Source of the DNA: Paenalcaligenes suwonensis
Lineage (GTDB): Bacteria; Pseudomonadota; Gammaproteobacteria; Burkholderiales; Burkholderiaceae_B
Assembly (NCBI RefSeq): GCF_011290505.1
Contig: NZ_JAANPV010000013.1
Location: 1-62,503, forward strand
DNA length: 62,503 nucleotides
Direction: 5' to 3'
Of the stretch, positions 6,999-53,788 are shown piece by piece (the stretch's first letter is position 1; each line of letters begins with the position of its first letter). Below the pieces are notes generated by a model. The model made no database searches. It was not told where the DNA came from and was given only the letters and a program-made list of their open reading frames with translations. Both the position numbers and the translations under genes were made by a program.

Positions 6999-8674
6999 TT
7001 AGTTCACCACGATCAGCACAGTGCTATCTACTGTATTGGCCTTAATGTCATCAACGGTGGTGCTAACGGCTTTGCAACCAAAGTTTTGGTATAAGGCTAA
7101 TTGATCATCGTAATGTGGGCTTTTTGTGCCATTGCGATCAATGAAACCGCTTTGGCCGGGAGGCATGGCATCGCAAAACTCTACGGTGTCGCCTAGGAAC
7201 ACAATACGGTTGTTTTCAGTGCCACGGTTTTGATAGCCCGTGAAACTGAAGGTATTGCCCTCGGTTGTTTGTGGGGTGCCGGTAAAGTTTCTATCGCTAA
7301 ACTTATGTACGGAGCTGCTTAGTTTCCAGTTAGATATATCCGCGCCATGTTCCGTGCTTAGGCGTTGGTAGGTATTTTCTAGGGCTTGTTGTATGACCTC
7401 GCTAGAGGGGTGTTGGGCAAAGAAGTTATAACGATTGGCGTCGGGGCTCTGTTCTAACGCCAACGCACGCAGCAACACTTTGGTGCCCATGCTGAGGTTA
7501 ATAGAGCCTGGGTTGGGGCCGGTGGTAGTAGCGAAGCCAGTATTGGTGTAGCTGGCTTTATGGGCTTCGGGCAGAGCAGGTACTAAGACCAGTTTGTACA
7601 TTTCCTCTAGCCAAGTTTTGAAAATCAAACGCTCTGGGCCGTTATTCATGCCTTGGCCATCATCGGTTTCTAAACCATCCCACGCCACTAATAAAGTTGT
7701 CATGTCGTGCGCAGGGCTAGTGGTTGGCTGCGCGGCAGCTGCGTTTTGTAGATGTGGCTGGAAATAGCGCCAGTTCACATCGTGATACGAGGCCTGGCGG
7801 TTGAAGTCCCAAATCTCTTGCACCGTAAAGGTGTCTTTTTCCGCAAACTGCACGTTCAATTCGTTAACCCTATCCCCATAGGTCCAGTAGTACGCATCGG
7901 TATTGGTTTTATCGGGGGCGGGGCGGTTATTCCAGTTGCTTAGGTAGCCTTGTTGCGGGTTGTAGGCTTTAGGGGTGGCGCTGGCTGCTGCATGGATACC
8001 GGTGTCTCAGCCGTAGTGTTGGGCACTGTTGTAGGGGAATGAGGATCATTCACCCATAACAATTCATTGAAAATACGCTGTGCTTGCTCTTTGCCGTGCT
8101 TGGCTTCTAGGTCGTTCAATAAGCTTAAGGACCCCATTTCCAAGTTCACATCGGAAAAACGGTTTGCCATGGAGCCCACCCAAATCATCGCTACATCGAA
8201 GGCCGATATAGGGGTAGGGCGGAAGTCAAAGTCTACGTATTCTTTGGGTAATAACGCAGGGTTTTTAAGCACCTTGGCTAAATAAGCGTTGTAGCCATCG
8301 GCGTAGCCTTGAAAGATGGCGGCATCGTCTGCTGATAACGCGGCTAGCTGTGTGTGGATGGATTCAGGGTTAAAGTTGCGACGCACGTTAATGTCGTAGT
8401 TTAGGTAGGCGTTGTTATCGCCCGCACCTAATACCTCAGCAGTAGTACCTACAAAGGAGCGGCGCGCCATATCCAGTTGGAATAGGCGGTCTTCTGCAAC
8501 CGCATAGCCGTAGCCGTAAAACAGTCCATAGTTGTTGTCAGAAAAAACATGCGGCACGCCATAGGCATCCCTATTGATTTCTACGGTTACGGGCGCCGCA
8601 TAAGCGGCACTTAACAGGGTACTAGCCAATAAACTCAAACCAAAAGCCGTTTTCTTCAAAGCAGAGGATCGCAC
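6999..8674 (-). pseudogene. pac: Penicillin G acylase remnant with internal deletion
   Basis: The 5' part (7940-8674, in the frame starting at the ATG at 8674) encodes a signal peptide ending in AYA and a complete alpha subunit: YGVPHVF, GLFYGYGYAVAEDRLFQ and ARRSFVGTTAEVLG match penicillin G acylases of the Alcaligenes faecalis type. The 3' part (6999-7990, another frame) encodes the second half of the beta subunit: YNPQQGYLSNWNN, YQNRGTEN and PGQSGF. Between them the spacer end and the first part of the beta subunit are missing, by comparison with the family about 250-300 residues. The lost part includes the autocatalytic cleavage site and the N-terminal nucleophile Ser, and the reading frame shifts at the junction near 7975-8015. 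The product cannot mature or hydrolyse amides. An assembly collapse is possible but less likely than a real deletion. Confidence 0.85.
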
Positions 8675-43630: not shown

Positions 43631-45097
43631 TTATGTTAGATCCGCACTGCGATCAATACCTCTGATTTTAAACTTTAAACTGTCTAGATCAAATTGATGG
43701 TTGCTACTTATAGACTTTAGTATAAGCCACGTTACCCCAACGGGGACCATGGCAGCAAGCAAAAATGATTCCAGCAAGTAGTCCATTGGAGCACCGGGAG
43801 CCGGGAAAACAGCTAAGCCAGCAACCAGTCCGCACAGCGTACTGATGGTTGCCGTCTTACCGGATATTTTTCGGCTGTAAAGCCCGTAAAACACCGGAAA
43901 AGCAGCAGCAGAGCATAGCAGATCAGCCAAAAGGAATAGGTATAAAACACTGTAACCTTGCGCTGACGCAATAAAAACTGGGATCATCAACACGATCACT
44001 AACCAACGTGATAGTTGTCTCAAAGTTTGTGCTGGCGTACGCGGACGTAAACGTTGCAAATCTACAGCAATAATGCTGGCGATGGCACTAATTGCGGTAT
44101 CAGCGCTGCTCATAACCAACGATAAACCCAGTGGTATAAGCACAATCACAAACCATGTTGGCAGTACTGGGGTGATGACATTAAAGAGAGCAACGGAGCT
44201 ATCGCCTCCGGGTGTAAAGGCCATAAACGCTAAGCCAAACAAGCCCATAACGAAAATAAAGGGCGCAACCAGCAAGCCACCTAACAGAAAGCCACGGCGC
44301 ATAGAGCGGGTGTCTTTGGCTGAATAAACACGTTGCCAGTTACCTTGGTGAAAGAGCCCGGTCAGCAAAATAGCCACAAAAAAGGTTAAACCGGCTTTAA
44401 TGCCCATCGGGTCGGTGAATGACAGCAATTGTGGTGCGCTTTGTTGCAAAGCGTTGACGGTAGGCGTGATGCCGCCAATAGCCTTCCAACCAAAGGCCAC
44501 CAAAATAACCAGGGCCGGAACAATGATTAGCATCTGTACTTTGTCGGTAAAAATGCTGGCACGTAAGCCGCCGTACGAGGTGTAGATCAAGGTAGAGATC
44601 AACACAATCCCAGCGGTTACCCAAAGCGGGATAGGCGCAATTAATTGCACCAGCTTCGCCATGGCAGTGAGTTCCGCTGTGAGGGCGATAAAAATATAGA
44701 ACAGCATGATCAACAGCGTTAAGGCATACATAGGTTTGCCATAACGGCTGAGTACGAATTCGCTGAGGGTGTGTCCTTCAGGGATCAGCTCACGCATACG
44801 CTGACCCAAAGGAATCATGGCCAAACGCGGTGACATAGAGCCAATGGCGTAGCCGGTGACGGCGGCTAGTCCACCCCACGTGGCGGCTTGCGCCGGGGAA
44901 AATAGAATCCATGCCCCTAGGGACGAGGCGAGCAAGGTAAGGATGGTAGCCGTAGAGCTTTGGCTATTTCTGGCAACCACGAAATCCTCTAGGCTCTCTC
45001 GAGCGTGGCGGGCATAGAGCACGCCAGCTAATGCAAAGACCGCTGCAAAAGCGATCAGCCACCACAAGGTGGCAGTAGATGGTAACAACACGAACAC
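43631..45097 (-). CDS. thiV: Sodium:solute symporter under a TPP riboswitch (ThiV-like)
   Basis: SSS-family permease with about 13 helices (TLWWLIAFAAVFALAGVLY at the start, GLFHQGNWQRVYSAKDTRSM as the SSS signature). The long open frame extends into the riboswitch at 45185, so upstream codons are non-coding; I place the start at a GTG near 45097 (TTG/GTG alternatives at 45121 or 45091; CAGGAA lies just upstream). TPP riboswitch-controlled SSS transporters have been named ThiV and are predicted to import thiamine or its pyrimidine/thiazole precursors. Transport of such a precursor is therefore the best guess. Confidence 0.82.
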   Translation of the reverse strand: MFVLLPSTATLWWLIAFAAVFALAGVLYARHARESLEDFVVARNSQSSTATILTLLASSLGAWILFSPAQAATWGGLAAVTGYAIGSMSPRLAMIPLGQRMRELIPEGHTLSEFVLSRYGKPMYALTLLIMLFYIFIALTAELTAMAKLVQLIAPIPLWVTAGIVLISTLIYTSYGGLRASIFTDKVQMLIIVPALVILVAFGWKAIGGITPTVNALQQSAPQLLSFTDPMGIKAGLTFFVAILLTGLFHQGNWQRVYSAKDTRSMRRGFLLGGLLVAPFIFVMGLFGLAFMAFTPGGDSSVALFNVITPVLPTWFVIVLIPLGLSLVMSSADTAISAIASIIAVDLQRLRPRTPAQTLRQLSRWLVIVLMIPVFIASAQGYSVLYLFLLADLLCSAAAFPVFYGLYSRKISGKTATISTLCGLVAGLAVFPAPGAPMDYLLESFLLAAMVPVGVTWLILKSISSNHQFDLDSLKFKIRGIDRSADLT

Positions 45098-45184
45098 AGC
45101 TTCCTGTAACAGTGACTCCACAACACGGAGGGACCGGCAGGCAAGCGAATAGGAGAGGGCACAGAGAGAGTGCGAGATGGTTAT

Positions 45185-45274
45185 CCTTCCCTTCGCCGGC
45201 ATTACCCGGATCAGGTTCAAAGGGTTACGGTAGGAACCGAATCTCAGCCTGACTAATCAGGCCCCCCTAGGAAC
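45185..45274 (-). ncRNA. TPP riboswitch (THI element) before the ThiV-like gene
   Basis: On the minus strand the conserved THI blocks appear in order: GGGGGGCC, CAGGCTGAGAT, then ACCCTTTGAACCTGATC, GGGTAATGCCGGCGAAGGGA. The three-way architecture (P1, pyrimidine-sensing CTGAGA arm, pyrophosphate-sensing ACCTGA arm) is complete. It lies about 90 bases before the likely start codon and should turn expression off when TPP is plentiful. Confidence 0.93.
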
Positions 45275-45281
45275 AAAAGCT

Positions 45282-45354
45282 AGCTTAGTAGATGGTGCTT
45301 TATTCGTCAAATAACGCTGGTGTGTATTGTGAAAATACTAGTTTGTGCTACTCT
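45282..45354. promoter_or_regulatory. Divergent promoters between the two TPP riboswitches
   Basis: Minus strand: -35 TTGACG (45305-45310) and -10 TAAGCT (45282-45287), 17-base spacer, feeding the thiV riboswitch. Plus strand: -35 TTGTGA (45327-45332), extended -10 TGcTACTCT with TACTCT at 45349-45354, 16-base spacer, feeding the second riboswitch. Both placements are by eye. Confidence 0.45.
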
Positions 45355-45365
45355 TTTAAGTCTTG

Positions 45366-45447
45366 ACGCGGGGTGCTTCGCCAACAGCGACGCTGAGATC
45401 ATACCCGTATAACCTGAACCAGATAATGCTGGCGTAGGGATGTCTCT
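45366..45447 (+). ncRNA. TPP riboswitch (THI element) before the SDR/monooxygenase operon
   Basis: The plus strand shows GCGGGGTGC, GACGCTGAGATCATACCC, AACCTGAACCAGATAATGC and TGGCGTAGGGA, the full set of THI blocks. It starts only about 90 bases from the opposite riboswitch. The expression platform is the hairpin at 45468-45498. Confidence 0.95.
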
Positions 45448-45467
45448 AGCTTTAGCCATAAAGCCAT

Positions 45468-45499
45468 AGCCTCCTCGCGCCGTTGTGGAGGCTTTTTTC
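45468..45499 (+). terminator. Riboswitch expression platform: terminator that also hides the Shine-Dalgarno
   Basis: AGCCTCC (45468-45474) pairs with GGAGGCT (45487-45493), followed by six T (45493-45498). The GGAGG of the 3' arm is also the ribosome-binding site for the ATG at 45500, with 8 bases between. So one hairpin can both terminate transcription and mask translation when TPP is bound. Confidence 0.7.
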
Positions 45500-46279
45500 A
45501 TGTCTGCAGTTGTTTCTCTTCCCTTGAATCAGCAAGTCGTGCTGGTGACTGGCGGTGCACGTGGTTTGGGCGCGCAGTTGTCTAGAGTCTTCCTAGAACA
45601 AGGTGCCAAAGTGGTGGTGAACTACTTTCAAAGTGCCGAAGCAGCACGCGCCTTGGTAAGCGAGTTTCCTGAGACGGCCTTAGCATGGCAAGCAGACGTG
45701 TGTGATCTTAAACAAGTGAAGTCCATGGTGGCCGCCGCTGCTTTGCATTTTGGGCAACCTGTCACAACGGTGATTAATAACGCTTTGCCGCAGTTTTCCT
45801 TTAATGGGGATGCACGCCCCCATGCCGATACCATTAGTTGGGCGCAGATGCAGCAGCAATTAGAGGGCGTGGTGGCGGGCGCGTTACATAGCATACAAGC
45901 GTGTTTGCCTGGCATGGAAAAACTGAAGTTTGGCCGTGTGGTAAACATTGGTACGAATTTGTTCCAAAACCCCGTCGTTCCTTACCATGATTACACCGCA
46001 GCCAAAGCTGCCTTGTTGTCGCTCACGCGTACCTTAGCAAATGATTTAGGGCCTAAAGGCGTGACCGTGAATATGATTTCAGGTGGTTTATTGCGTACGA
46101 CTGATGCGTCTGCTGCTACCCCAGAAGCTGTGTTTGATTTAATCGCGGCCAACACACCGTTGCGTCGCGTGACCACACCGCGCGAGTTTGCCGAAACAGC
46201 ATTGTTCTTTGCGTCACCATGGTCTAGTGCGGTAAGCGGGCAGAATCTGATTGTTGATGGCGGGATGGTGAAGAACTAA
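45500..46279 (+). CDS. TPP-regulated short-chain dehydrogenase/reductase
   Basis: 259 residues. Rossmann start VVLVTGGARGLGAQLSR (TGxxxGxG), the NN-A motif (INNALPQF, in place of the usual NNAG), a catalytic Tyr-x3-Lys in YHDYTAAKAAL, and DGGMVKN at the C-terminus. It is an NAD(P)H-dependent oxidoreductase, commonly auto-annotated as 3-oxoacyl-ACP reductase. Its ATG lies 8 bases after the riboswitch hairpin and its last base is shared with the start of the monooxygenase gene. The TPP control suggests work on a thiamine-related molecule rather than on fatty acids. Confidence 0.85.
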   Translation: MSAVVSLPLNQQVVLVTGGARGLGAQLSRVFLEQGAKVVVNYFQSAEAARALVSEFPETALAWQADVCDLKQVKSMVAAAALHFGQPVTTVINNALPQFSFNGDARPHADTISWAQMQQQLEGVVAGALHSIQACLPGMEKLKFGRVVNIGTNLFQNPVVPYHDYTAAKAALLSLTRTLANDLGPKGVTVNMISGGLLRTTDASAATPEAVFDLIAANTPLRRVTTPREFAETALFFASPWSSAVSGQNLIVDGGMVKN

Positions 46280-47574
46280 TGAAGCGTCAACTGCATTTAA
46301 ATCTGTTTATCTATGGCTGCGGTCACCATAGGGCGGCATGGCGTCACCCTAATTCTAGTGTCGATCAGTTAGGGGATATCAGCTATTACCAGTCGTTAGC
46401 GCAATTGGCCGAGCGCGGTAAGTTTGATGCGATTTTCTTTGCGGATGGGCAATATACCGATAGCGTGTCAGATGGCCCGCGTTGGTTTGTTGAGCCGCTC
46501 ACTACCTTGTCGGCCTTAGCGGTGGCAACGGAACGTGTAGGGCTGATTACGACGGTTTCTAGCACCTTTTACACGCCATTTCATGCGGCTCGTATGTTGT
46601 CGTCCTTAGACCATGTTTCTAAGGGGCGTATAGGTTGGAACGTGGTGACGTCCATGTACGACGCCGAGGCCAGAAATCATGGCCACGAGTCTATGCCCGA
46701 TCACGCGTGGCGCTATGCTCGCGCGGCAGAGTTCATTGAGGTCACCAAACGGTTATGGGATTCCTGGCACGATGCCGCATTGAAGATAGATAAGCAGGGC
46801 GTGTATGCCGATGAAAGCTTAGTACATCAAATTAAGCATCAGGGTGATCATTTTTTGGTGGATGGTCCCTTAACGTTGCCTCGTTCGCCCCAAGGCCACC
46901 CTGTGTTGTTCCAAGCAGGGGCCTCAGAACAAGGTCGAAATTTAGCGGCTTTAGAGGCCGAAGCCATTTATGCTGTGGCGTACGATCTACCGGCTTCGCA
47001 AGCGTACTATAGAGACATCAAAAAACGCGTGAAAGCGGCAGGTAGAACGGTGGATGTGCCCATTATGCCCGGCTTGGTCACGTACGTGGCTTCAACGCAG
47101 GCCGAAGTGCTCGCGAAGCAGCGTGAGCTGGATGTGCTACTACCGGCAGATGCGTCCTTGCGCCAATTAAGTATGTTTGTAGGGCAGGATTGCATGCAGT
47201 GGGAGCTAGACGCCCCCGTGCCTGATCTACCAGCGCTAGAAAGCTTTACTGGTCCTAAAGGGCGTTACGGCACGATTCTGCGCATTATCGAGAAAGAGCA
47301 GCCTACCGTTCGCCAGCTATTGGGACGCTTGGCGGCTGGGGGCGGGCACTGCACGATGGTGGGTACCCCCGATGTGATTGCGGATCAAATGGAACAATGG
47401 TTCTTAAATGAAGGGGCTGATGGTTTTAACCTAATGCCGCCTGCGCTGCCTAGCAGTATTGAGGACTTCATTGAGCATGTGGTGCCGATCTTGCAGAAAC
47501 GTTGCCTTTTCCGAAAAGACTACAGCGGTTTCACATTGCGGGATCATTTAGGGTTAAACAGACCGGCAGCCTAG
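46279..47574 (+). CDS. TPP-regulated LLM-class FMN-dependent monooxygenase (NtaA/SnaA/DszA-like)
   Basis: 431 residues in the bacterial-luciferase-like fold of the nitrilotriacetate monooxygenase subgroup: LHLNLFIYGCGHHRAAWRHP at the start, FDAIFFADG, ITTVSSTFYTPFHAARML, RIGWNVVTSMYDAEARNHG, and LFQAGASEQGRNLAALEAE. Members use FMNH2 from a separate reductase and O2 to oxidise S, N or ring carbons. No flavin reductase is adjacent. The start codon overlaps the SDR stop by one base, so both are made together under TPP repression. The substrate might be a damaged or oxidised thiamine fragment; this is inference. Confidence 0.88.
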   Translation: MKRQLHLNLFIYGCGHHRAAWRHPNSSVDQLGDISYYQSLAQLAERGKFDAIFFADGQYTDSVSDGPRWFVEPLTTLSALAVATERVGLITTVSSTFYTPFHAARMLSSLDHVSKGRIGWNVVTSMYDAEARNHGHESMPDHAWRYARAAEFIEVTKRLWDSWHDAALKIDKQGVYADESLVHQIKHQGDHFLVDGPLTLPRSPQGHPVLFQAGASEQGRNLAALEAEAIYAVAYDLPASQAYYRDIKKRVKAAGRTVDVPIMPGLVTYVASTQAEVLAKQRELDVLLPADASLRQLSMFVGQDCMQWELDAPVPDLPALESFTGPKGRYGTILRIIEKEQPTVRQLLGRLAAGGGHCTMVGTPDVIADQMEQWFLNEGADGFNLMPPALPSSIEDFIEHVVPILQKRCLFRKDYSGFTLRDHLGLNRPAA

Positions 47575-49307: not shown

Positions 49308-50753
49308 TTACGTTGGGCTGTAAATGTGGCTAATACCTTGGTAGGCTTCTAGCCCCCAAGGGCCTAGTTCTCGGCCTATGCCACTGCGACCATAGCCGCC
49401 CCAGGAGCCGGCTGCGGGCACAAATTGATGGCTATTTATCCATGTCACACCACTGACCAGTTGCTGAGCAATGCTATGGGCTTGTTGCGCGTTGCCTGAA
49501 ATCACGGTTGCCGCCAAACCAAATTGCTGCTGATTGGCTAGGGTGATGGCGTCTGCCGTGTCACTAAACTCTTGCACACATAACACCGGGCCAAAGATCT
49601 CTTTTTGCCATAGATCGTGGTCACTAGGTACATTCAAAAAGATACTGGGACGCACAAAGTAACCGCTAGCTGGCAATGTAATCGGCACGGACTCTAATAG
49701 GTCTACCAAACCGTCTTGTTTAGCGTGCTGTTGAAAGGCCTGCACGGTTTTTTGCTGTGTGGCACTAATCAGTGGCGCAAGGCTAGTGCGAGCTTCGGCT
49801 GGGTCACCGGCGATGAACTCTTTGGCGCGTAGCTTCAGTGCGGCATACAACGCAGGTGCGATGCGTTGATGTACTAGCAACCTAGAGGTGGCCGAGCACA
49901 TCTGTCCGCTATTGGTGAAAATACCGCTCCAGACCCAATCGCAGGCGTTGTCTATGTCGCTGTCTTCCATCACGATAATGGGCGATTTACCGCCCAGTTC
50001 TAACGACACAGGACGCGTACCTTGTGCCGCAGCACGCATTACCTGTTCACCTACAGCATTGCTACCAGTGAACGATATTTTGTTGACCAAAGGGTGTGCG
50101 CAAAGCGGAGCGCCTACGTTAATGCCATCACCGTGAACCATATTCAGTACCCCGTTTGGTAAACCAGCGGCTATAGCGCAGGCGGCAAGATACTGTTCAG
50201 GTAAGGGAGTAAGCTCAGAGGGTTTCCATACTATCGTGCAGCCAGCGGCCAAGGCGGGAGCAATCTTCCAAGCGGCTGTGACTAAAGGGAAATTCCACGG
50301 TGTAATCATGGCTACCACGCCTAAGGGACGACGGTAGCAACGCGCTTCAAAGCCGGGGGATTGTATGTCGCGCACTTGGCCTTGCTGGGCATCCAAGGTG
50401 TTGGCGAGTTCGGCGTAATACCTAAAGCAAGCAATGGCGTCTTCCACGTCTAGCTGGGCTTCACTGATTAGCTTGCCAGAAAAACGTACACTGTCGGCGA
50501 TTAGGATTTCTGCACGCGAGGCGAGCTCAGTAGCGATAGCGTCTAAATACTGGCCGCGTTGTGCTGCGCTTAGGGCGCTCCATACCGGAAAAGCGGCGGC
50601 TGCAGCGTGAACAGCGTGGTCTACATCCGCAACACTACCACGCGTAAGTTCCGCTTGTAGTGCCCCGGTTACGGGTGAATACAGGCTTTGCGTATGCGGC
50701 GACTGGCTTGGTACCCACTGGTTGTCAATAAGATGTTGTGTCAGTGTCAGCAT
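49308..50753 (-). CDS. Aldehyde dehydrogenase, probable 4-guanidinobutyraldehyde dehydrogenase
   Basis: 481 residues. ALDH motifs: ITPWNFPLVTAAWK, FTGSNAVGEQ (NAD site), catalytic Glu in SLELGGKSP, catalytic Cys in FTNSGQMCSATSR, and EIFGPVLCVQEF. It would oxidise the aldehyde made by the decarboxylase encoded just upstream (gap 6 bases) to 4-guanidinobutyrate, with NAD+. This is the KauB-type step of the arginine transaminase pathway; the substrate is inferred from operon context. It is the last gene of the operon. Confidence 0.87.
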   Translation of the reverse strand: MLTLTQHLIDNQWVPSQSPHTQSLYSPVTGALQAELTRGSVADVDHAVHAAAAAFPVWSALSAAQRGQYLDAIATELASRAEILIADSVRFSGKLISEAQLDVEDAIACFRYYAELANTLDAQQGQVRDIQSPGFEARCYRRPLGVVAMITPWNFPLVTAAWKIAPALAAGCTIVWKPSELTPLPEQYLAACAIAAGLPNGVLNMVHGDGINVGAPLCAHPLVNKISFTGSNAVGEQVMRAAAQGTRPVSLELGGKSPIIVMEDSDIDNACDWVWSGIFTNSGQMCSATSRLLVHQRIAPALYAALKLRAKEFIAGDPAEARTSLAPLISATQQKTVQAFQQHAKQDGLVDLLESVPITLPASGYFVRPSIFLNVPSDHDLWQKEIFGPVLCVQEFSDTADAITLANQQQFGLAATVISGNAQQAHSIAQQLVSGVTWINSHQFVPAAGSWGGYGRSGIGRELGPWGLEAYQGISHIYSPT

Positions 50754-50759
50754 AATCAG

Positions 50760-52367
50760 TTATAGGCTTTGTGCCCAAGCATGTGCGTCAATTTCAATAA
50801 TTAATGGTGCCGTTTGCGTCCAGCCTTGCAGTTGCTGGCTAAGCTCATCGGGGTTGTTTACCCGTTGGTAGGCCGCACGTACGCTTTGGCTTAAGGCAGC
50901 GAAATCAGGTGGTGGAACGTTCACGCCAATTCGAGCTACCGAGGCTTTATCCATGGCGCGTCGGATCTCGTCGTAACCGGTGTTATTCCAAATTAGCACC
51001 ACAATATTCAGTTGTTCATCCACCATGGTGGATAGCTCTGCCACGGTGAACATAATGCCGCCATCGCCCATCAAGGCCACTACAGGGCTGTTAGGGCGTC
51101 CTAACTTGGCGCCTAATGCCGCCGGTAAGGCGTAACCCAAGGTGCCATAGCCGGTAGAGGCATTAAAGTAATGGCGTGCTTTAGGTAGGCTGACAATATG
51201 GTTGCCGGCATAAACGGTAGCGGTAGAGTCTCCTACTAGCGTGGCATGAGGTAGATGCGTTTCTATAGCCCTATAGAGCGGGTAGAAGGGGCTAAAAGCT
51301 GGGTCAGTTTCTAGCGCGAGTTCAGCACGTAGTTGTGCCGCTGTGTGAGCGCCGTTATGAGGTAGGGTGTGAGGAAAGTGCACGAGTAAGGCGCGAGCAA
51401 ACTCACCCGCATCAGACACCAGAGCGAGGTGAGGGCGTTGATTGCCCACTAACTGAGCTGCATCAATGTCTACACGTAGTAGCTTGCCTTGCAGTCTGAA
51501 GCCATCGTCAAACACCACGTCGTAGTCGGTTTCACCTAGTTCGGTGCCCAAGGCCAATATGACATCGGCGTGTGCGGCGTACTGGCGTACTGCCGTAAAG
51601 GCAGCATTTGCACCAATATCCAGTGGATGGGGCTGCTCCACACTACCGGGCAAAATGCCTTTGGCATTAATGGTGGTGATGACGGGGGCGTTGAGCGTTT
51701 CGGCTAAACGTAACACCGCATCCGCGTTAGCAGCACAACCGCCACCCACTAAGAGCAGTGGACGTTTGGCTTTTAACAGCAATGTGGCGCATTCGGCGAC
51801 GGCTTGCGGATGTGCTCCAGCAGGGTAAAAATTAGGCCGTGGCAGCAGCGGCGTATCTATAGGGGCGGTAAGTAAATCTATAGGGATTTCTATGTGCACG
51901 GGGCCAGGGCGGCCCGAGCTAAAAATCGCCATAGCACGTTCTAGCGCCTGGGGCAGTTGCTGTGGATCCAGTATGGTCTGGCTAAAACGTGCCACTTGGC
52001 TAACCAGAGCCTGTTGCGAGTGCAGTTCATGCAAACGCCCTTGCTGGCTCCCCAAGGTGTCACGCCTCCCCACGCTGGAAATCACCAACATGGGGATGGA
52101 GTCGGCCAAGGCTTGCCCCATGGCCGTAAGGATGTTGCTCATGCCCGGGCCAGTGATGATAAAGCACACTCCCGGTTTGCCTGTGGTGCGAGCGTAGCCA
52201 TCAGCCATAAAACCAGCACCTTGTTCATGTCTAGGGGTAATGTGCCGTATACGACTTTGCTCTAGCCCTCGGTACAGTTCAATGGTGTGCACGCCAGGTA
52301 TACCAAATACCTGTTCTACACCCCAGTGCTCTAGTTGTTGAATAAGGTATGCGCTACAGCTATACAT
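50760..52367 (-). CDS. aruI: ThDP-dependent decarboxylase, probable 5-guanidino-2-oxopentanoate decarboxylase
   Basis: 535 residues in the three-domain ThDP enzyme fold. The N-terminal part, VFGIPGVHTIELYRGLE with catalytic Glu in RHEQGAGFMADGYAR and ITGPGMSNILTAMGQA, is the pattern of AruI rather than acetolactate synthase. The C-terminal ThDP/Mg2+ motif is MGDGGIMFTVAELS...NN. AruI removes CO2 from 2-ketoarginine to give 4-guanidinobutyraldehyde. Guanidinobutyrase, symporter and ALDH genes in the same operon support the call. The arginine aminotransferase AruH, which makes the substrate, is not in the window. Confidence 0.85.
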   Translation of the reverse strand: MYSCSAYLIQQLEHWGVEQVFGIPGVHTIELYRGLEQSRIRHITPRHEQGAGFMADGYARTTGKPGVCFIITGPGMSNILTAMGQALADSIPMLVISSVGRRDTLGSQQGRLHELHSQQALVSQVARFSQTILDPQQLPQALERAMAIFSSGRPGPVHIEIPIDLLTAPIDTPLLPRPNFYPAGAHPQAVAECATLLLKAKRPLLLVGGGCAANADAVLRLAETLNAPVITTINAKGILPGSVEQPHPLDIGANAAFTAVRQYAAHADVILALGTELGETDYDVVFDDGFRLQGKLLRVDIDAAQLVGNQRPHLALVSDAGEFARALLVHFPHTLPHNGAHTAAQLRAELALETDPAFSPFYPLYRAIETHLPHATLVGDSTATVYAGNHIVSLPKARHYFNASTGYGTLGYALPAALGAKLGRPNSPVVALMGDGGIMFTVAELSTMVDEQLNIVVLIWNNTGYDEIRRAMDKASVARIGVNVPPPDFAALSQSVRAAYQRVNNPDELSQQLQGWTQTAPLIIEIDAHAWAQSL

Positions 52368-52372
52368 GGGTA

Positions 52373-53788
52373 TTACTCTCCGGATACAGGGCTAGGAATA
52401 GAGGTGTTACGTGAGCGGGGGTTAGGGTCGCTCAAGCTAAACACAATAAAGGTTAGTAGCCCAATGGCCAAACTGAAATAAATAGGCGTGTTAGCCAGTA
52501 GGCCGTCTTTAATCATGAAAATGGATGCAGTGATTGCCCCGGTGGCCATGCTAACAATAGCGCCACGTGTAGAGGCACGTTTCCAGAAAATGCCGCCAAT
52601 CAGTGGGATTAACATGCCACCTACCAACAGGTTGTAGGCCATGGTCAGCGCACTAATTACGTCGCCAATGGTGGGGGCAATGGCTAACATCAGTAAACCG
52701 AATAATAGTGTAAACACACGGTTTAAGGTAACGGAGTCGCTTTCACGGTATTTTTTGCCGCGCACTAAAGGCCAGAGGTCTTGGGCGACGGTGGTAGAAG
52801 CAGCTAACAAGCCTGCACTAGCTGTAGACATTAATGCAGCCAAGCTGGCGGCAATCACCAAGCCACGTAAGCCCACGGGCAATACCTCGTTGATCATGGT
52901 AGCAAAAGCGGTGTCGGGTGCCTCTAACTCTGGCAGTACCAGTTTGGCGGCCATGCCAATCATCGCCATCGCTACGCCGTAAAGAATGCAGTACAAACCG
53001 CTTAGTACGCCGGCACGTTTAGCGACTTTTTCACCTTTGGCAGTAAACACACGCTGCCAGATATCCTGACCAATAAACACGCCTAAGAAGTAAATCAGGA
53101 AGTAGGTAAGAATGGTGTCGTAACCAATATTACTGAACGAGAAGAAAGCGTCAGGCAACTGTTGGGTCATGGTTTCCCAGCCCCCCGCGTTATACACGGA
53201 GGCGGGTAGCAAAATGAACACTAAGCCTATGGTCATGATGATGAACTGAATCATGTCTGTTAAGGTGAGTGACCACATGCCGCCTATGGTGGCGTATACC
53301 ACGACTAGACCACCGCCCAAGATAATGCCGGTGATAAAAGGCAGATCAAAAATCACGGCCAAGATCGTGCCGGTTGCAATGGTGGACGTCACGCCAATCA
53401 TCAAGGCGTAGATCAACATGATCACAGCACTAGCATTACGGGTTGCAGGGCTGTAGTAGCGTTCTAGTACTTGGGTAACGGTGTAAACGCGCAAGCGCAG
53501 CAAGGGTTTAGCCAGCACCAAGCTTAATCCCATAATACCCAGGCCTAGCGTGGCACAGAGCCATAGCCCTGAAATGCCATACAAATAGCCTAGGCGTACC
53601 GAGCCTATGGTGGCGGCTCCTCCTAATACTGTAGCCGCCATGGTGCCGGTGTAAAACACCGGTCCTAAGTTTCTACCTGCCACCAGGAAGTCATCTTTGT
53701 TTTGAATGCGGCGCATTCCTATCCAACCAAAAGACAGGATAACGAGCGCATAAAGTATGACTACACCTAAATCAATACTGATCTCCAT
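52373..53788 (-). CDS. Sodium:solute symporter of the guanidino-compound operon
   Basis: 471 residues, about 13 helices. SSS signatures: RNLGPVFYTGTMAATVLGGA, GQDIWQRVFTAKGEKVAKRA and ASLAALMSTASAGLLAASTT with the Na+-site region. It probably imports 4-guanidinobutyrate, 2-ketoarginine or a similar guanidino compound. It sits 42 bases after gbuA and 5 bases before the decarboxylase. Confidence 0.85.
   Translation of the reverse strand: MEISIDLGVVILYALVILSFGWIGMRRIQNKDDFLVAGRNLGPVFYTGTMAATVLGGAATIGSVRLGYLYGISGLWLCATLGLGIMGLSLVLAKPLLRLRVYTVTQVLERYYSPATRNASAVIMLIYALMIGVTSTIATGTILAVIFDLPFITGIILGGGLVVVYATIGGMWSLTLTDMIQFIIMTIGLVFILLPASVYNAGGWETMTQQLPDAFFSFSNIGYDTILTYFLIYFLGVFIGQDIWQRVFTAKGEKVAKRAGVLSGLYCILYGVAMAMIGMAAKLVLPELEAPDTAFATMINEVLPVGLRGLVIAASLAALMSTASAGLLAASTTVAQDLWPLVRGKKYRESDSVTLNRVFTLLFGLLMLAIAPTIGDVISALTMAYNLLVGGMLIPLIGGIFWKRASTRGAIVSMATGAITASIFMIKDGLLANTPIYFSLAIGLLTFIVFSLSDPNPRSRNTSIPSPVSGE

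Follow-up and report, generated by a model that had tools for sequence, protein, structure and literature searches.

We studied a 62,503-nucleotide stretch of DNA from Paenalcaligenes suwonensis (the window; NCBI RefSeq assembly GCF_011290505.1, contig NZ_JAANPV010000013.1, positions 1 to 62,503), in which two divergent thiamine pyrophosphate (TPP) riboswitches, or THI elements, lie between a ThiV-like sodium:solute symporter (SSS) and a gene pair encoding a short-chain dehydrogenase/reductase (SDR) and a luciferase-like monooxygenase (LLM). Judged by its riboswitches, recurrence and neighbours, the pair is very probably linked to thiamine. We propose, at a probability of about 0.5, that the symporter imports a thiamine-derived pyrimidine and that LLM and SDR together return it to 4-amino-5-hydroxymethyl-2-methylpyrimidine (HMP). 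The features of the locus are:

43631..45091, minus strand: ThiV-like sodium:solute symporter, about 486 aa (SSF, PF00474, 88.6 bits)
45171..45278, minus strand: TPP riboswitch aptamer, symporter leader (RF00059, 81.1 bits)
45359..45457, plus strand: TPP riboswitch aptamer, leader of the SDR-LLM operon (RF00059, 67.2 bits)
45468..45498, plus strand: hairpin AGCCUCC...GGAGGCU with a U-tract behind it, a possible expression platform (z -1.43, by itself not significant; fold -12.9 kcal/mol)
45500..46279, plus strand: SDR oxidoreductase, 259 aa (NF006393/PRK08642, 422.4 bits, cut-off 292)
46279..47574, plus strand: NtaA/DmoA-type LLM, an FMN-dependent monooxygenase, 431 aa (TIGR03860, 520.3 bits, cut-off 279.7)

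Both riboswitches were matched at full length by the Rfam model RF00059, whose cut-off is 54.3 bits (E 1.8e-14 on the minus strand and 4.8e-11 on the plus strand). They diverge with a spacing of 80 bases, and a tRNA was the sole further Rfam match in the window. A first-pass annotation of this DNA had claimed two complete THI elements back to back at 45185-45274 and 45366-45447, and these limits fall within those of the Rfam matches. In the plus-strand aptamer, the variable arm 3′ of CUGAGA is absent from the Rfam alignment. Among 32 aligned TPP copies, standard pairs filled 86.8% of the pair cells and 19 of the 27 pairs had changed on both sides, with a covariation score that none of 500 shuffles reached. 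The hairpin of the plus-strand leader contains the GGAGG Shine-Dalgarno directly 5′ of the SDR start codon (ATG 45500), and it was not among the results of a terminator scan. We identified a hairpin resembling it in leader L026, hairpins with U-tracts in L033, L034 and L036, and hairpins with no clear U-tract in L027, L028, L029, L031, L152 and L153. Judged by the riboswitch family, falling cellular TPP would release expression on both sides.

The genes ahead of which the first-pass annotation had placed the two elements, an SSS transporter on one side and an SDR overlapping a monooxygenase by one base on the other, were also borne out. PF00474 confirmed the SSS/SSF family of the transporter, with TIGR00813 at 110.8 bits, under its cut-off of 184. 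The longest open reading frame (ORF) of the symporter, 43631-45220, extends into the aptamer; the N-termini of its orthologues place the probable start near GTG 45091, and TTG 45086-45088 is also possible. The protein was 38% identical end to end (264 bits) to a haloarchaeal symporter that adjoins two tenA-family genes with thiD nearby, and it gave 69 bits with the window's other SSS protein. Seven records of haloarchaeal plasmids matched ThiV, and both of the two examined carry the symporter adjoining tenA. An SSS protein with a TPP riboswitch upstream, as found here, fits the description of ThiV. An F-H-Q stretch was seen by eye in the protein, without SiaT numbering (no SiaT-named chain was among the 12 matches); the residues assigned to HMP/thiamin symporters are Tyr78, Asp139 and Phe254 in SiaT numbering (PMC11452348).

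On the plus strand, the SDR stop codon (TAA 46277-46279) shares its last base with the LLM start codon (ATG 46279), and both proteins exceeded the cut-offs of their models. NF006393/PRK08642 bears the name '3-oxoacyl-ACP reductase'; the neighbours of the SDR at several loci are thiamine genes, and no search was aimed at fatty acid genes there. The stretch IGTNLxQxPVVPYHDYxxxKAAL was invariant in 14 aligned SDR sequences. Solved relatives of the LLM include CmoJ/YtnJ, nitrilotriacetate monooxygenase, BdsA, EmoA, DmoA and the riboflavin lyase RcaE; such enzymes oxidise a carbon beside nitrogen or sulfur and thereby cleave a C-N or C-S bond. The LLM gave 314.6 bits to CmoJ/YtnJ versus 293.7 to 3sdo, and its structural model, with a mean predicted local distance difference test (pLDDT) score of only 69.5, matched the CmoJ fold with an E of 3.9e-33. 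The SDR model had a mean pLDDT of 75.0. Low-confidence stretches surround the presumed active sites of both enzymes, so that we draw no argument from their pockets.

Adjacent SDR and LLM genes were found at 12 loci (the window, L014, L026, L027, L028, L029, L030, L031, L152, L153, L157 and L194). Their hosts are Alcaligenaceae, Methylobacillus, Pseudochrobactrum, Corynebacterium, Rhodococcus, Mesobacillus, another member of the window's order and a genome of the Sporosarcina phylum, and the pair thus spans Pseudomonadota, Actinomycetota and Bacillota. The search for THI elements upstream of such pairs in other genomes, as proposed in the first-pass annotation, gave a TPP element upstream of the SDR in all 12, 11 by Rfam and that of L027 by our covariance model R2 only (51.1 bits). 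A ThiV-like symporter stands opposite the pair in six of the 12, each time with its own minus-strand TPP element. R2 was built from alignment A4 with Rfam's structure, and its matches to its 32 training copies arise by construction; outside the training set it matched both L026 elements, L038, L203, L206, the second L027 element and the thiC leaders L113, L119 and L117. No TPP element was found with R2 (E up to 1) at 66 control loci (774,626 bases in all) that hold unrelated SDRs, indicating that the association of the pair with TPP elements is not due to chance. We also counted SDRs above the NF006393 cut-off in three genome samples drawn independently of TPP elements. The SDR had a TPP element near it or heading its operon in 4 of 10 genomes (398 searched), 2 of 3 (299 searched) and 8 of 9 (296 searched), and in 11 of 19 across the three samples once the window's genome and two other centre genomes were removed.

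Two loci carry a damaged LLM gene. At L030 6775-8043 (Corynebacterium pollutisoli), an in-frame stop truncates the LLM gene, whose ORF ends at 7863; SDR and TPP element are present. L156 6812-7877, on an Exiguobacterium plasmid, is a thirteenth case with TPP element and SDR, in which the reading frame of the LLM is broken, perhaps a sign that this step is being lost.

The trees of the two enzymes separate the riboswitch-linked forms from others. Among the 53 rows of the SDR tree, the window's SDR falls in a clade of 35 rows (support 100/97), 26 of which bear a TPP element, matched by R2 in L027 and by Rfam in the others (that of L036 lies about 1 kb upstream). A separate actinobacterial clade of six rows had the element in all six, another clade of eight rows in none, and four distant rows likewise in none. 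The 11 paired LLMs form one clade (support 100/100) apart from 10 unpaired LLMs, which include the host's own paralogue (L030 and L156 were left out of this tree), and 20 positions that never vary among the paired LLMs are missing from the unpaired ones. Homologues mostly without THI elements, which the first-pass annotation had named as evidence against its idea, were not what the pair showed, and the SDR taken by itself gave a mixed picture.

The SDR also occurs among thiamine genes, including thiM and thiD, about whose co-occurrence the first-pass annotation had asked. Gemmobacter, Neorhizobium and Rhizobium (L151, L154, L158) have TPP-controlled thiM-thiE-thiD-SDR operons, as do two more genomes of their phylum (L145, L146). 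In the actinobacterial SDR clade, a TPP element is followed by ThiT, thiamine pyrophosphokinase (TPK), SDR, ThiD and ThiM, in this order. ThiT and TPK were identified by hidden Markov model in L201 and by eye in L203 and L205, and thiD and thiM are present in L201, L203, L204 and L205. Seven Bacillota-like loci (L033-L039) have the SDR with a TPP element and no adjacent LLM of the window's family. At one of them, L034 6969-7964 (Pseudogracilibacillus), the TPP-controlled SDR is followed by a different LLM, of the MsnO8 family (TIGR03558, 359.4 bits).

The thiamine genes of the hosts bear on which vitamer could be involved. The closest named relative of the window's host is Alcaligenaceae bacterium 429 (SDR 95%, LLM 97%). 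The first-pass annotation had noted that no classical thiamine biosynthesis gene is present. This holds for the locus, and the genome carries thiC, thiG and thiD elsewhere. We examined the six genomes with the ThiV module (the window's own, G000, and G657, G658, G659, G660 and G619). ThiC was found in all six, ThiG in all six at at least 347 bits and ThiD in all six above cut-off, while profile searches of the six matched no kinase of 4-methyl-5-(2-hydroxyethyl)thiazole (HET; ThiM, PF02110), no TPK and no ThiK. With no thiazole or thiamine kinase match, a rescued compound would enter the thiamine pathway of these six hosts only as HMP, through ThiD. The earlier proposal that the enzymes act on a damaged thiamine, thiazole or pyrimidine is thus supported as far as a TPP-controlled thiamine-supply module goes, by the 12 pairs and the thi operons, and is narrowed to the pyrimidine by the missing ThiM, TPK and ThiK matches together with thiD.

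Within the window's genome (99.87% complete), three TPP matches were found, the two of the window and one of 48.1 bits, below cut-off. Between the end of this third element (L003, G000:C5:24786-24893) and the longest thiC ORF, which lies downstream of it, there are 27 bases; the ThiC profile match is 516 bases away. R2 scored the thiC leaders L113 and L119 at 42.4 and 40.3 bits, and both are absent from the Rfam matches, so some thiC switches of the window's group seem to escape the Rfam cut-off. The genome has two ThiG matches, both of 348.8 bits (G000:C2:612288-613031 and G000:C6:46792-47535), and its close relative G657 likewise has two.

Based on these results, we considered how the pair might supply HMP. 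Because the SDR stands beside an LLM of the C-N/C-S-cleaving type and in operons with ThiD, it is best read as a pyrimidine aldehyde reductase, that is, as a reductase of oxidised thiamine pyrimidine. The ThiV-like symporter would import a pyrimidine vitamer of thiamine, and the LLM, with FMNH2 and O2, would oxidise its exocyclic C5′ carbon beside a heteroatom. Candidate targets are the amine of 4-amino-5-aminomethyl-2-methylpyrimidine (AmMP), the formamide of N-formyl-4-amino-5-aminomethyl-2-methylpyrimidine (FAMP), the sulfonate of sulfite-cleaved thiamine and the thiazolium nitrogen of thiamine itself; cleavage of thiamine by sulfite yields a pyrimidine sulfonate. The product would be 4-amino-2-methylpyrimidine-5-carbaldehyde, which the SDR would reduce to HMP with NAD(P)H; ThiD would then phosphorylate HMP, and ThiE would couple the product to the thiazole made by ThiG. 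At SDR-only loci, the SDR may rescue aldehyde formed elsewhere. This aldehyde chemistry, taken in full, is tentative and clearly less likely than the import and return of a pyrimidine as such.

What was read from sequence are the riboswitches, the gene layout, the recurrence and the thiamine gene matches of the hosts; every substrate and reaction is inferred. Several observations weigh against this proposal. Nine of the 35 rows in the window's SDR clade lack a TPP element above cut-off (one, L200, gave a weak R2 match of 20.8 bits), and at eight solo SDRs (L032, L138-L140, L142-L144, L155) no TPP element exceeded the cut-off and tblastn revealed no thi gene. The kinase absences come from draft genomes, with completeness known for two of the six (99.87 and 100), and the ThiK model is narrow, exceeding its cut-off in one of 14 controls. 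Among pair hosts without the ThiV arm, ThiM is present in the Corynebacterium genomes G661 and G662 and TPK in G838; these hosts have other entry points, and the exclusion argument is therefore limited to the six ThiV-module genomes. Because those six make HMP with ThiC, salvage there would be auxiliary. Moreover, three of them have tenA: G000 (L168, TIGR04306 140.8 bits, cut-off 130), G657 (near-identical sequence) and G658 (by eye). In SAR11, an excess of AmMP altered HMP uptake by less than 15% (PMC11452348), which suggests that SAR11 ThiV is rather HMP-specific.

TenA was also considered in its own right. PF03070 matched in all six ThiV-module genomes. L162, L163 and L164 lie beside PqqB/D/E-like ORFs and, by this context read by eye, are probably PqqC, so the co-occurrence with tenA about which the first-pass annotation had asked is found in three of the six genomes. 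A role of the pair as a plain replacement for TenA was rejected, given that TenA in three of six makes no clean replacement pattern.

In a further explanation, the LLM is an oxidative thiaminase. Acting on thiamine itself, or on an adduct of it with sulfite or an amine, this flavin monooxygenase would cut the methylene bridge and yield the pyrimidine aldehyde, from which the SDR would make HMP. We regard it as unlikely. If true, exogenous thiamine would become usable by bacteria with no thiamine kinase match. It would parallel the riboflavin lyase RcaE, which splits off the ribityl chain from its vitamin (PMC12746152).

About as unlikely is the explanation that ThiV imports intact thiamine and the pair repairs its side chain, for example from thiamine aldehyde to thiamine. 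The position of the SDR after ThiT and TPK in the actinobacterial loci agrees with it, as does the TPK of G838. However, the lack of a TPK or ThiK match in all six ThiV-module genomes means that thiamine would not be phosphorylated directly there, and the LLM would be left with no obvious role. Restoration of the thiazole half, in which the LLM would oxidise a thiazole derivative and the SDR reduce a HET aldehyde, is similarly unlikely: the SDR is found in thiM operons and both Corynebacterium pair hosts have ThiM, but rescued HET would be unusable in the ThiV-module genomes, none of which has a HET kinase match and all of which have ThiG.

The riboswitches could also be real and the pair serve an unrelated TPP-regulated role, such as scavenging of sulfur or amines, which we hold to be about as improbable as a thiazole role. 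Among unpaired LLMs at four plasmid loci, three follow an ABC transporter with an SsuA-like binding protein, below the cut-off of that model, and the fourth has an ABC transporter and a TauD-like gene opposite. The LLMs of L231, L232 and L233 are about 50% identical to that of the window, follow such transporters and have no TPP element; they possibly have a separate scavenging role. These unpaired relatives and the solo SDRs without thiamine neighbours fit an unrelated role. However, the paired LLMs fall 11 of 11 in their own clade, and TPP elements, present at every pair found, were matched by R2 at none of eight unpaired LLM loci (L147-L150, L231-L234).

Inactivation of bacimethrin, oxythiamine or another thiamine antimetabolite that lowers TPP would make the pair a defence instead of a vitamin supply. 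The varied substrates of LLMs and a rise of expression at low TPP would suit it, but linkage to uptake and to thiM, thiE and thiD is the pattern of supply genes and no result points to an antimetabolite, and we give it little credence. The least credible explanation has the enzymes substitute a de novo step, such as iminoacetate supply to ThiG in place of ThiO or ThiH: relatives of nitrilotriacetate monooxygenase do oxidise N-CH2-COOH groups, but, judged by the ThiG searches, G838 has THI element, SDR and LLM with a ThiG match that is only partial (30.6 bits), which makes the pair unlikely to be part of thiazole synthesis, and the SDR occurs in G361 and G572, with no ThiG match, and in G1215, with one of 35.8 bits.

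Elsewhere in the window, positions 49308-53788 encode an aldehyde dehydrogenase, a TPP-dependent enzyme resembling 5-guanidino-2-oxopentanoate decarboxylase (NF005712, 740.5 bits) and the second SSS symporter, perhaps an arginine-breakdown cluster. Rfam searches found no TPP element there.

Thiamine and its pieces are scarce in nature and quick to break down. Return of the pyrimidine to HMP by LLM and SDR would, if true, be a second way, by redox chemistry and in three phyla, to regain HMP from damaged vitamin B1, and would assign a role to an SDR family whose present name is that of a fatty acid enzyme; as a two-enzyme system, the pair is open to direct assay. Rodionov and co-workers reportedly described in 2002 a THI-regulated gene resembling 3-oxoacyl-ACP reductase, OarX, together with thiV in Methylobacillus. 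We take OarX to be probably of the same family as the window's SDR, in which case the link between this SDR and thiamine was published then. We know of no LLM partner or divergent double-riboswitch unit for OarX, and no title on a TPP-controlled SDR-LLM pair or such a divergent unit was among the literature matches listed.

To our knowledge, the known enzymes of thiamine salvage are hydrolytic. The TenA and ThiXYZ-YlmB systems return pyrimidines from thiamine breakdown to HMP, with TenA and YlmB acting as hydrolases. The proposed system would likewise lead from pyrimidine to HMP, and its ThiV homologues adjoin tenA on the two haloarchaeal plasmids, but the pair would act by oxidation followed by reduction. 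Compared with the solved NtaA/DmoA-type LLMs named above, the window's LLM shares TIGR03860 and 31-38% identity across the first 25 PDB fold matches, and differs in its separate, TPP-controlled clade. The SAR11 ThiV with its upstream TPP riboswitch is reportedly a likely HMP symporter (PMC11452348). It resembles the window's symporter in its SSS family, its riboswitch and the likely import of HMP; SAR11 is an HMP auxotroph, whereas the window's host has thiC and a ThiV arm paired with SDR and LLM.

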